A DNA stretch of 64,000 bases. Source: Nitrososphaerota archaeon. GTDB lineage: Archaea > Thermoproteota > Nitrososphaeria > Nitrososphaerales > Nitrosopumilaceae. Made by a program: the position numbers and the translations under genes. The stretch spans positions 186,001 through 250,000 of the forward strand of contig JAGWFT010000002.1 in NCBI GenBank assembly GCA_028867755.1, in the 5' to 3' direction. Position 1 is the stretch's first letter, and each line of letters starts with the position of its first letter. The notes under the pieces were generated by a model. It was not told the DNA's origin. It ran no database searches and saw only the letters and a list, made by a program, of their open reading frames with translations. Shown here in pieces: positions 36,783-40,800 of this stretch.

Positions 36783-37024
36783 TGAGGTTTTCTGTGATCA
36801 GATTTTAGCATTTATCTTTTATGGTATGCAATCTGATCCGTTCTGTCCTGTCAAAAAACTTGAAAAATTATTTTTTCATCAATGAGAGAAAGCAACTTAG
36901 TCCAAGCTAAAATTCGATTACTATTTAACCGCAATATTATAACGCTGTTATATGAAAATTATTCCCCTTTCGGGCATATATTACGATATGTCGTACAGCA
37001 ACAGTCAAAGAAGAGGGTAGTCAA
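36783..37024. promoter_or_regulatory. Promoter/operator region between argG and the ABC operon
   Basis: Two inverted repeats lie here: TATAAC-GCT-GTTATA at 36938-36952 and TACGA-TATG-TCGTA at 36982-36995. CATAT...ATATG overlaps the second. They lie within 90 bp of the ABC ATPase start at 37025, which has GAGGG about 8 nt upstream. The first repeat overlaps a TATA-like stretch. They are candidate operators for the embedded winged-helix protein of this operon. Confidence 0.5.
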
Positions 37025-37801
37025 ATGACAAAACTCCAGGCAAAAAACATTGTAAAACATTTTGATCACAACGGTAACTCAGTTCTTGCACTTGATGGAA
37101 TAACTCTTGATGTGCAAGAAGGGGACTTTGTCTGCATTGTGGGACCATCAGGATGTGGCAAGTCTACATTTCTAAATATTGTTGCAGGTCTTGAAAAACC
37201 AGACTCTGGAGATGTATTGCTTAATGGAAATTCTATCTCCACTCCAGGACCTGACAGGACGATGGTCTTTCAAGAAGGTGCGCTCTTTCCATGGCTCAAG
37301 GTTATTGATAACGTAGAGTTTGGACTCAAGATGGCAGGAATTCCAAAGGATGAACGCAGACAAATATCGCAAAGATATCTTGACATGATGCAACTAACCA
37401 AGTTTGCAGACTCGTATACATATCAGCTATCGACTGGAATGAAACAAAGAGTTGCAATAGCAAGAGCACTTGCTATGGATCCGGAAATTTTGTTGATGGA
37501 TGAACCATTTGCAGCTCTTGACTCTCAGACAAGAGATCTCTTACTTGTAGAACTGCAACTCATATGGGAGAGGACAAAAAAGACAATCATCTTTGTAACA
37601 CACAACATCTCTGAATCTGTCATACTGGGAAACCGCGTAGTAGTTTTCAAAAACAGGCCTTCTAAGATAAAAAAAGAGATAGTTATCGATTATAGAAGAC
37701 CACGACTAATGGAGGATGAGAATCTCCAGAAATATTATCATCAGATTGTAGAAGAGCTCAAGAGCGAAGTGATTGCGCAAATAAAGGATGAGAACCAATG
37801 A
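37025..37801 (+). CDS. ABC transporter ATP-binding protein, nitrate/sulfonate/taurine type
   Basis: 258 aa, ATG start with GAGGG upstream. Walker A GPSGCGKST (40-48), signature STGMKQRVAI (a variant of LSGGM), Walker B LLMDEP and D-loop FAALDSQT are visible. The subfamily is that of SsuB/TauB/NrtC-like importers. It overlaps the permease start by 4 nt (ATGA), so the two are translationally coupled. With the permease and the binding protein at 39730 it forms a complete importer. Confidence 0.9.
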   Translation: MTKLQAKNIVKHFDHNGNSVLALDGITLDVQEGDFVCIVGPSGCGKSTFLNIVAGLEKPDSGDVLLNGNSISTPGPDRTMVFQEGALFPWLKVIDNVEFGLKMAGIPKDERRQISQRYLDMMQLTKFADSYTYQLSTGMKQRVAIARALAMDPEILLMDEPFAALDSQTRDLLLVELQLIWERTKKTIIFVTHNISESVILGNRVVVFKNRPSKIKKEIVIDYRRPRLMEDENLQKYYHQIVEELKSEVIAQIKDENQ

Positions 37802-38598
37802 ACGAGAAAGTAATCTCTGAGAAAAACTCGCAAGGCCTTCACGACGCAGCAAACGCTGCTTTACTATTGGCAATCTTTGTTGGTGTGTGGCAAGTGGTAT
37901 TCATGCTTGGAATATGGCCTCAGATATCCTTGCCATCTCCTGTCATGGTTGCAGAGTCGTTTGTCAAAATAATCTCAAACTTTTCTCTACCCGAAGGAAT
38001 TGGTATAACGCTGGGAAGACTTGTGTCCGCATTTGCAATCTCCATAGTTCTTGGGACACTCATAGGACTTGCAATGATCCGATTCAGGGGGTTTGGCAAG
38101 ACTCTTAATTCATTTTCTGCAGGTCTGCTATCATTTCCAAGCATCGCGTGGGTTCCGTTTTCAATTCTCTTGATAGGATTCAATGAGTTTGGCATACTGT
38201 TTGTAGTAATAATGAGCTCAATCTTTTCTGTGATGATCTCAACTTATAGCAGCATCAGAAATATTCCGCCGATATACCTTGATGCTGCAAAAAACATGGG
38301 TGCAAAAGGATTTGCCCTGTTCAGATATGTTACGTTGCCTGCAGCAACCCCGTCATTGATAATTGGGTTAAGACAAGGATGGTCATTTGCATGGCATGCA
38401 ATAATTGGAGCCGAAATACTCATGTCAATTGTAGGCCTAGGACACATACTTTCAGTTGGAAGAGAATTTTTGGATATGGGCGAGGTCATTGCCAGCATGA
38501 TTACAATATTTGCAATAGGATTGATAGTTGACAGATTTTTGCTCAACAAGATAGAGGAAAAGATACGAAGAAAGTGGGGACTTGATCACCATCGCTAA
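37798..38598 (+). CDS. ABC transporter permease, nitrate/sulfonate/taurine type
   Basis: 266 aa, ATG start overlapping the ATPase stop. Six or so membrane helices. The cytosolic EAA-type loop DAAKNMGAKGFALFRYVTLPAATP contacts the ATPase. It forms a homodimeric pore with the ATP-binding protein. Substrate specificity sits with the binding protein at 39730. Confidence 0.88.
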   Translation: MNEKVISEKNSQGLHDAANAALLLAIFVGVWQVVFMLGIWPQISLPSPVMVAESFVKIISNFSLPEGIGITLGRLVSAFAISIVLGTLIGLAMIRFRGFGKTLNSFSAGLLSFPSIAWVPFSILLIGFNEFGILFVVIMSSIFSVMISTYSSIRNIPPIYLDAAKNMGAKGFALFRYVTLPAATPSLIIGLRQGWSFAWHAIIGAEILMSIVGLGHILSVGREFLDMGEVIASMITIFAIGLIVDRFLLNKIEEKIRRKWGLDHHR

Positions 38599-38622
38599 AT
38601 GAAAAGATCTGTGTGAACTAAG

Positions 38623-39609
38623 TTGCTAGATGATCTTGTAAAAAATAGAGTAGATGCAAAAAAACCTCGAAAAGAAGGACTGACATATGTAGTTGATAGG
38701 CTTGAAAGCTACAACAAGGAAAACTGGGAGTTGCTTTCATCGTTTGTAGATGTAGTAAAGATAAACGGAGCACTGCCGCTTTTGGCATCAGAACAGAGTC
38801 TTATCAAGAAAATAAAATTCTACCATGATCTTGGAATTCTTGTCTCGACAGGACATATTAGTACGGAATATTCAATTGCTCAGAACTCATTTGAAAGATA
38901 CGCCAAAGAAGCTGCAAAGCTAGAGTTTGATGTGATAGAAATTGGCGAGAACATTGTAGACTTGAGTGCGGAAAGAAAAAAGAAAATTAATGAAACAATA
39001 TTGTCGCTAGAACTAGAATCGCAGTGGAAAGTGGGAAAGCGCGATCCAAGACATCAGCTTACAGTAGAAGATACGTTATCCAAAGTGGAAGAACTGGTAA
39101 GTTTAGGTTCAAAAAAAGTAATAGTAGAGGCAAATCAGGGGTTTGGAGTTGGAATTTACGATGAGAATGGCAACGTGAAATGGGGATCTGTTGCGACTCT
39201 TACCAACAAGTATCCTCCAAACACGTTCATCTTTGAGGCGCCTCTTGAAACACAACAGTTTGCACTGATAGCAGAATTTGGAGAACGTGTTAATCTCTCT
39301 GAGGTATACGTAGATTCCATAATATCGGTAGAATCAGAACGACGTGGAATCCTGTCAAAATCTGCCTTTACTACAGTGAACCTAAGAGAAGAACCAGAGG
39401 GTGGACCTGCTGCAAAATTTATCTACTATATCATAAAGACAAAGTTTCCAATCGAGCAAAGTGACTTGATGAACTTGAGTTATCTTCCAAGAAGAACTGT
39501 ACAAAGCGCTATTGAAGATCTAAAAAATCAGGGTCTAATAATAGAAAGAACCAGTCTCAACGATGCAAGAAAAAGAGTTTACTATCCTATCAAGTCTGAA
39601 TGGCTGTAG
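38623..39609 (+). CDS. ComA-like phosphosulfolactate synthase domain fused to a winged helix
   Basis: 328 aa with TTG start. Residues 1-250 follow the ComA family (phosphosulfolactate synthase, first step of coenzyme M): GLTYVVDRL, VDVVKINGA, IKFYHDLGI, LEFDVIEIGEN, VGKRDPRHQLTVEDTL, KKVIVEANQGFGVGIYDENG, FIFEAPLETQQFALI and ESERRG. Differences from methanogen ComA include VKINGALP where VKFGWGTS is usual, and STGHISTEY where PGGTLFEY is usual, so the active site may be altered. Residues 260-328 form a MarR-like winged helix (PIEQSDLMNLSYLPRRTVQSAIEDLKNQGLI). It lies inside a sulfonate-type ABC operon. I infer either a sulfonate-linked enzyme or a ligand-sensing regulator. Confidence 0.8.
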   Translation: MLDDLVKNRVDAKKPRKEGLTYVVDRLESYNKENWELLSSFVDVVKINGALPLLASEQSLIKKIKFYHDLGILVSTGHISTEYSIAQNSFERYAKEAAKLEFDVIEIGENIVDLSAERKKKINETILSLELESQWKVGKRDPRHQLTVEDTLSKVEELVSLGSKKVIVEANQGFGVGIYDENGNVKWGSVATLTNKYPPNTFIFEAPLETQQFALIAEFGERVNLSEVYVDSIISVESERRGILSKSAFTTVNLREEPEGGPAAKFIYYIIKTKFPIEQSDLMNLSYLPRRTVQSAIEDLKNQGLIIERTSLNDARKRVYYPIKSEWL

Positions 39610-39653
39610 AAAAAACAATCTGAAGAACAAAAATGACAAATAAAATTAATTGT

Positions 39654-39686
39654 ATAATTTGCACATTATAATCATAATTTGCATAT
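39654..39686 (+). promoter_or_regulatory. Tandem ATAATTTGCA repeats upstream of the binding protein
   Basis: ATAATTTGCACAT (39654-39666) and ATAATTTGCATAT (39674-39686) are direct repeats 20 bp apart, i.e. two helical turns, within the 120-bp gap before the substrate-binding gene. Same-face spacing suits a DNA-binding protein such as the ComA-HTH fusion encoded immediately upstream. Confidence 0.5.
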
Positions 39687-39729
39687 TTGAATTCGGTTAT
39701 ATTAGAACAAATTCAAGCACGCGTGTAAG

Positions 39730-40800
39730 ATGAACGTAATAGCAAAATTTGGAATTGCAGGTGTAATAATAGCAGTAGTAATTGCCCTAAGTTTTATCTC
39801 AATTTCTGGCAATACACAAACACATGTAGTATCAGAATCTTCATCTGACACTCTACGCATTGGATATTTCCCAAACATAAGCCATGCACAAGCAGTAATA
39901 GGGCTTGGAAATGGTGATTATCAAAAGGAACTTGGAAATATTCAAGTAGAAACACAGGTGTTCAATGCAGGACCTGCTGCTATCGAAGCACTCTTTGCAA
40001 ATAGAATTGATGTTGCATATGTAGGACCAAACCCTGCAATTAATGGATATATCAAATCAGACGGTCAAGGACTGCGAGTTATTGCTGGTGCCGCAAGTGG
40101 AGGCACAGTTTTTGTTGTACGAAATGATGATGGCATAAACTCAGTAAATGATTTGGGTGGAAAAAAATTTGCTTCTCCTCAACTTGGAAATACACAAGAT
40201 GTAGCACTTAGGTCATTTTTACTCAAAAATGGATACAAAACTTCTGATAATGGTGGAACTGTTCAAGTAATCCCTGCTGCAAATCCTGATATCTTTACTA
40301 TGATGTTAAAGAAAGACATTGACGGTGCATGGGTTCCAGAACCATGGGGGACTAAACTGGAAAAAGAAGCAAACGGAAAGATTCTAGTTGATGAGAGAGA
40401 CTTGTGGCCAAATGGCAAGTTTGCTACTGCTTTGATAGTGGTAAGAACTGACTATTTGCAAAACCATCCTGATATAATCAAGAAATTGTTAGAGGCTCAC
40501 GTCAATGAGACTAATTGGATAAACAACAACAAGGATAAAGCAATATCAGTTTTCAACGATCAACTAGAAAAATTGACAGGCAAACAGCTTCCATCAGACG
40601 AGCTTGAAGAAGCCTTCTCAAGAATGGACTTGACGTATGATCCAATGCAAGATTCACTTTACAAATCAGCAGATGCCGCATTTAACTTGGGATTCTTGGG
40701 TGATACAAAGCCTGATCTAAGCAACATATTTGACCTTAATCTTCTCAATCAAGTGTTAGGCGAAAATAACTTACCTGCAATATCTCAAATATCTGGTTAG
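39730..40800 (+). CDS. ABC transporter substrate-binding protein, SsuA/NrtA-like
   Basis: 356 aa, ATG start. An N-terminal membrane anchor (about residues 6-26, no lipobox Cys) is followed by a periplasmic-binding fold of the sulfonate/nitrate/taurine type: LRIGYFPNISHAQAVIGLG, IDVAYVGPNPAINGYI, LGGKKFASPQLGNTQDVALR and DGAWVPEPWGTKL. It delivers the solute to the importer encoded at 37025-38598. Nitrate, taurine and sulfonate binding proteins share the fold, and the ComA-like neighbour argues for an organosulfonate; that is inference. Confidence 0.87.
   Translation: MNVIAKFGIAGVIIAVVIALSFISISGNTQTHVVSESSSDTLRIGYFPNISHAQAVIGLGNGDYQKELGNIQVETQVFNAGPAAIEALFANRIDVAYVGPNPAINGYIKSDGQGLRVIAGAASGGTVFVVRNDDGINSVNDLGGKKFASPQLGNTQDVALRSFLLKNGYKTSDNGGTVQVIPAANPDIFTMMLKKDIDGAWVPEPWGTKLEKEANGKILVDERDLWPNGKFATALIVVRTDYLQNHPDIIKKLLEAHVNETNWINNNKDKAISVFNDQLEKLTGKQLPSDELEEAFSRMDLTYDPMQDSLYKSADAAFNLGFLGDTKPDLSNIFDLNLLNQVLGENNLPAISQISG

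Follow-up and report, generated by a model that had tools for sequence, protein, structure and literature searches.

The archaeal riboflavin kinase RbkR has been described as 'bifunctional as gene regulator and enzyme' (PMC8305020), and archaeal ThiN-domain repressors, which appear in the title of a reference cited in the same source, likewise join an enzyme domain to a helix-turn-helix. MocR/TauR regulators combine a sensor of aminotransferase fold with a GntR helix-turn-helix, and some of them control taurine metabolism (PMC5320631). A protein of comparable design is encoded in the stretch of DNA considered here (the window), 64,000 nucleotides from a Nitrososphaerota archaeon of the Nitrosopumilaceae (assembly GCA_028867755.1, contig JAGWFT010000002.1, positions 186,001 to 250,000). 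In this protein, a ComA (phosphosulfolactate synthase) barrel, known from enzymes that attach sulfite to a metabolite, is fused to a winged helix-turn-helix (wHTH), and its gene lies among those of a sulfonate-type importer. It differs from RbkR and the ThiN-domain repressors in enzyme fold, ligand and regulon, and in the C-terminal position of its helix-turn-helix; MocR/TauR proteins are bacterial and dependent on pyridoxal phosphate (PLP), and are unrelated to it in both fold and helix-turn-helix.

The ComA-wHTH protein is most likely a regulator rather than a phosphosulfolactate synthase. From comparisons of sequence, we consider it probable that it is a one-component transcription regulator, in which the barrel would sense a sulfur ligand and the wHTH would bind an array of TGCRY half-sites, adjusting the import of an organosulfonate. 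The elements involved, including an array in front of the gene for the substrate-binding protein (SBP) of the importer, are as follows.

38623..39609, + strand: ComA-wHTH fusion protein, 328 aa, candidate transcription regulator, TTG start (ComA, PF02679, 3.1e-58)
38656..39354, + strand: ComA barrel with an altered catalytic mouth, residues 12-244 (PF02679, 3.1e-58)
39385..39606, + strand: MarR-like winged helix, residues 255-328 (profile match and AlphaFold2 model)
39651..39702, + strand: TGC-repeat array and TATA box at the SBP promoter, candidate operator (core TGCATATTTGAATTCGGTTATA at 39680-39701; second TGC at 39660)

A ComA barrel with a re-specialised pocket

The length of 328 amino acids is kept in most relatives of the protein in ammonia-oxidizing archaea (AOA). 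An AlphaFold2 model contains the barrel and the wHTH (mean pLDDT 85.8, pTM 0.71), and the modelled barrel matches ComA of Methanocaldococcus jannaschii (1QWG) with a TM score of 0.87 by target length. By family sequence and barrel fold the protein belongs with phosphosulfolactate synthase, and most core residues are shared with M. jannaschii ComA (29% identity) and Bacillus subtilis YitD (1U83; 24%). The differences from these enzymes lie in replaced mouth residues, the added wHTH, the neighbouring importer, and pathway partners for coenzyme M synthesis that were not found. An ordinary phosphosulfolactate synthase, serving coenzyme M or sulfolactate synthesis and carrying an incidental C-terminal extension, would account for the highly significant family match and the fold. 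This is very unlikely in view of the altered site, the score against the equivalog model TIGR03849 (150.2 bits, with a cut-off of 280 bits), and a search of 15 genomes that found neither ComB (PF04029) nor ComC (PF02615) in any of them, with positive controls. The search thus gave no sign of a coenzyme M pathway.

Residues were compared between 59 proteins of the AOA clade and 21 enzyme-like relatives, using M. jannaschii numbering. The latter set comprised M. jannaschii, B. subtilis, Thermoplasmata, archaea of the groundwater thaumarchaeal family f7 and of f43, and one Eubacteriales bin; several of its Thermoplasmata and f7 members are fusions too. Among 81 conserved positions, 17 are lost in the AOA clade. 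Six enzyme-invariant residues are replaced or deleted, and the changes are themselves re-fixed: G75S (95%), G107N (93%), E133K (100%), R170N (98%), deletion of S172 (100%), and N227E (98%). D40, K43, E103, K137 (93%), E168, E205, Q211, Q212, N224, and R240 are retained. Since they sit where barrel strands end, these look like active-site positions. The key substitutions are re-fixed and not random, and we take the pattern to mean that the ligand site has changed and is under selection, in a pocket that was re-specialised rather than decayed. A preliminary description of the locus had remarked on an altered active-site neighbourhood (VKINGALP and STGHIS); both motifs are indeed there, and the substitutions behind them are mostly common to the whole AOA clade.

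The barrel might still catalyse a reaction of sulfite or phosphoenolpyruvate (PEP), perhaps with altered specificity, while the wHTH reports flux in the manner of RbkR. Such a bifunctional enzyme-regulator would fit the retention of K43, E103, K137, E168, E205, Q211, and Q212, and the Thermoplasmata and f7 relatives do combine a full site with the same wHTH. We nevertheless regard it as unlikely, given the six replaced mouth positions in the AOA clade and the failure to find a downstream ComB or ComC. With catalytic signatures changed in all members of the AOA clade, the same evidence disfavours an earlier proposal that the enzyme couples import to sulfolactate metabolism.

The winged helix and its relatives

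The C-terminal region of about 74 residues matches the MarR/SlyA structure 4mnu by profile (1.2e-5), and weak MarR_2 matches were obtained for all 19 members tested (best 6.5e-7; window protein 8e-4). In the recognition helix, L, R, R, T, and Q are invariant from Thermoplasmata through AOA. Along with the AlphaFold2 model, the profile and MarR_2 matches support the MarR-like winged helix that had been suggested to follow the ComA domain. The protein has the build of a one-component regulator, with a DNA-binding domain joined to one derived from an enzyme.

Stand-alone wHTH copies of 73 aa occur under the TGCRY motif in two sister genomes (L063:1137-1358, + strand; L065 near 9306, − strand) and are possible competitors or helpers; none was found in the host genome. 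A separate protein with NAD-kinase-like motifs (GGDRG, NDVA, SAYSMSAGGP) and a related C-terminal winged helix is present in all AOA genomes checked (G000:C24:1101696-1101884, locus L256; also L246, L247, L248, L257, and L261). In our reading this would be a second enzyme-wHTH fusion, its identity as a NAD kinase being taken from the motifs alone.

A repeat array paired with the fusion gene

A gap of 120 bases between the ComA-wHTH and SBP genes holds a separate SBP promoter, where the TGC-repeat array ends in TGCATATTTGAATTCGGTTATAT at 39680-39702. Across relatives, the motif TGCRYVTTTGA-N6-TTATAT, with upstream TGC repeats, is found 5' of SBP or ATPase genes. The start codon usually lies 20-35 bases downstream of it, so leaderless transcripts are likely. 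A looser form, TGCRNNTTTGANNNNNNTTATA, matches the host genome once, at 39680-39701 in the SBP promoter, and its reversed control has no match there; the window holds no second array match at two or fewer mismatches. The same form gave 20 matches in eight of 14 genomes; each of them lies at a fusion locus or in the adjoining sulfur-gene cluster, and the reversed form again gave none. TGC recurs at −29, −20, −9, and 0 across 24 unique sites, and the first three of these offsets were not used in finding the sites. The refined motif is present in 9 of 28 fusion-bearing genomes and 5 of 172 others (p = 7e-6, a value that overstates independence because the genomes are related). Matches from four of the five fusion-less genomes were examined and fall inside open reading frames (ORFs), not promoters. 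Linkage to a target and a specific promoter motif, as would suit a one-component regulator, are both seen at the level of sequence.

The TGCRY motif has further sites in the sister genomes G185 and G087, in front of a second SBP gene and of a PstS-like gene that is followed by a SufU gene, and in G087 it stands before a rhodanese gene as well; a YeiH-type gene lies within the same sulfur-gene cluster. A conserved cysteine-rich ORF of 55 aa (MPDESCRKCG...) is also found under the motif (L063 near 6644 and L064 near 10686, both + strand).

A natural control is provided by one genome, G040, a complete single contig from the same genus in which no gene matches the ComA family. Its locus is syntenic, with genes for argG, the ATPase (93% identity), permease (81%), SBP (74%), metF, and methionine synthase, and the SBP gene starts 5 bases after the permease. 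The locus has neither the ComA-wHTH gene nor the TGCRY array, which points to gene and array acting as a single module some 1.1 kb long; a palindrome upstream of the ATPase gene, described below, is kept. As the importer operon is intact without the module, the importer does not need it.

The array could instead be bound by another factor, such as a paralogue of transcription factor B or an unrelated regulator, with ComA-wHTH regulating something else or acting as an enzyme. A preference of basal factors could give the fixed spacing between core and TATA box, and the locus already holds a second operator of sulfur or Fe-S type. We judge this explanation improbable, because gene and array are jointly present or absent at a single place between the permease and SBP genes, and because of the ORF location of the four fusion-less matches.

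The importer locus and the distribution of the fusion

The remaining features of the locus are given below.

36939..36951, strand not assigned: palindrome ATAACGCTGTTAT upstream of the ATPase gene, candidate operator of a wider sulfur/Fe-S circuit
37025..37801, + strand: ABC importer ATPase, SsuB/TauB type (ABC_tran, PF00005, 3.7e-32; taurine, nitrate, and SaoA models below cut-off)
37798..38598, + strand: ABC importer permease, SsuC/TauC type (BPD_transp_1, PF00528, 5.7e-17; SaoP and SsuC models below cut-off)
39730..40800, + strand: SBP, SsuA/TauA-like, NMT1 type (NMT1_2, 3.3e-32; SsuA_fam, TIGR01728, above cut-off)

As first described, the ATPase, permease, ComA-wHTH, and SBP genes all run on the + strand, and their ORFs and families were confirmed. 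The permease gene starts within the stop of the ATPase gene, and the ComA-wHTH gene follows 24 bases after the permease. The three-part architecture of SsuABC/TauABC importers is found in one place, with an SBP that scores 230 bits against SsuA_fam (cut-off 163.5 bits) and has TauA 6ssy as its best solved relative (1.5e-11). Every equivalog model for taurine or alkanesulfonate stays under its own cut-off, and the importer is assigned to the SsuA family only. Unlike SsuABC/TauABC, it houses the ComA-wHTH gene, and no adjoining desulfonating enzyme was identified. Luciferase-like monooxygenases were considered as SsuD candidates and proved uninformative, as they are also present in fusion-less AOA. 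The metF gene abuts the SBP gene in the window (position 40797); in G087 (L064:3754-9565), rhodanese, YeiH-type, second SBP, HTH, and PstS-like genes lie between the two.

The host genome is 1.64 Mb, with the Nitrosopumilaceae metagenome-assembled genomes JOPF002 and JOPF033 as its closest named relatives. Among 200 genomes of the class, 28 contain a gene of the ComA family; within the genus of the window, three genomes including the host carry one and most do not. The preliminary description had named phylogeny of the ComA domain as a check, and AOA fusions group as a single clade (SH-aLRT 100, stem 1.03) in a quick tree with its long branches flagged. The window protein is nested inside the Nitrososphaeraceae radiation, which makes horizontal transfer of the fusion into its genus likely. 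Fusions with an intact site are found in Thermoplasmata and family f7 (JACPSZ010000007.1, JACPBJ010000016.1).

Linkage was surveyed at 33 fusion loci, one genome per species. SsuABC-type genes lie within 6 kb of the fusion at 24 of them (22 AOA, 2 f7), and at 12 linked loci the closest of these is an SBP gene in opposite orientation, with the intergenic region in common. In f7 the fusion gene is divergent from an SBP-ATPase-permease operon. With gene order so varied, the pairing of fusion and importer outlasts rearrangement. Neighbouring genes in Thermoplasmata showed no consistent partner, only a divergent ACT-domain gene in four genomes, and the neighbours of solo paralogues had no common function.

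A second operator upstream of the ATPase gene

The palindrome at 36939 is the sole forward match to its sequence in the host genome, and it also stands upstream of the ATPase gene in G185, G087, and the fusion-less G040. Three f7 genomes together have 13 palindrome sites (L032, L208-L214, and L222-L231), and 12 of these are at promoters for sulfite reductase, APS/PAPS reductase-ATP sulfurylase, DsrE2, or ComA|SBP, an apparent sulfur-assimilation regulon. In f6 genomes it is found at DsrE2 and HTH_3 genes. The HTH_3 gene (130-134 aa) has the palindrome at its own promoter (L266:1077-1466, − strand; L273:279-680, + strand), which makes its product a candidate regulator of the palindrome circuit; in G150 it adjoins a gene for a PLP-dependent synthase. 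Many Nitrososphaeraceae also carry the palindrome ATAACGNYGTTAT ahead of sufB, at a distance of about 10-20 bases, whether or not a fusion is present (L175-L182, L267-L270, L275).

The f7 sites, at sulfur-assimilation genes and the ComA|SBP promoter, first suggested the palindrome ATAACGNCGTTAT as the operator of ComA-wHTH. A control in fusion-less genomes ruled this out, as the palindrome is present at sufB in Nitrososphaeraceae with or without the fusion, at DsrE2 and HTH_3 in f6, and at the ATPase gene of G040. As the operator occurs without the fusion, the upstream site (36938-36995) probably belongs to a different regulator. Both stretches of DNA singled out beforehand, 36938-36995 and 39654-39686, do hold non-random elements, but they are not equivalent. 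The palindrome is shared with sulfur genes, which gives an independent link between the importer and sulfur metabolism.

A model for control of import

In the proposed mechanism, the re-specialised barrel would bind a small ligand of sulfur metabolism, such as a sulfonate, sulfite, or a PEP-like anion. The winged helix would bind the TGCRY array, which at the SBP gene lies immediately before the TATA box; in relatives it would also bind the arrays at the ATPase and further sulfur genes. This binding would adjust import of an organosulfonate as a sulfur source. In archaea, a site upstream of the TATA box favours activation, and the position of the array suggests that activation may apply here. 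From the anatomy of the locus, general sulfur status may act through the palindrome on the ATPase-permease-regulator operon, with ComA-wHTH then setting SBP expression through the array according to ligand.

Several observations weigh against this model. The exact motif is missing in 19 of the 28 fusion-bearing genomes, and Nitrosocosmicus has loose variants at best. The motif spans the TATA region and could reflect basal-factor preference. The f7 fusions carry a different operator at the shared promoter, and nine of the 33 fusion loci have no nearby SsuABC genes (some of them at contig ends). The suggestion in the preliminary description that an enzyme fold serves as a sensor controlling organosulfur uptake gains from the linkage, the conserved re-specialised pocket, the wHTH, and a motif that comes and goes with the gene.

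Significance

Genes for transporters of sulfonates such as taurine have previously been noted in AOA, and Nitrososphaera viennensis showed no growth benefit when given taurine (PMC4129164). In the open-access papers searched, we found no description of a sulfur-source regulator in AOA or of a ComA domain as a sensor. A more tentative proposal, possible rather than probable, is a family of ComA-derived sensors across Thermoplasmata and Nitrososphaeria, in which relatives with an intact site would be bifunctional enzyme-regulators sensing sulfite and PEP directly, and the AOA branch would be a pure sensor with a new sulfur ligand and its own TGCRY-array operator.

As a DNA target for first tests, the array is both short and exact. 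If the protein is labelled automatically as a 'phosphosulfolactate synthase', AOA are wrongly credited with a step in coenzyme M synthesis. What some AOA likely possess is an enzyme-derived, sulfur-sensing gene switch of a new kind. The barrel enzyme appears to be caught in stages, with an intact site plus wHTH and then a re-specialised site plus wHTH, and the case comes with a paired candidate operator and a natural control genome that has neither gene nor array.

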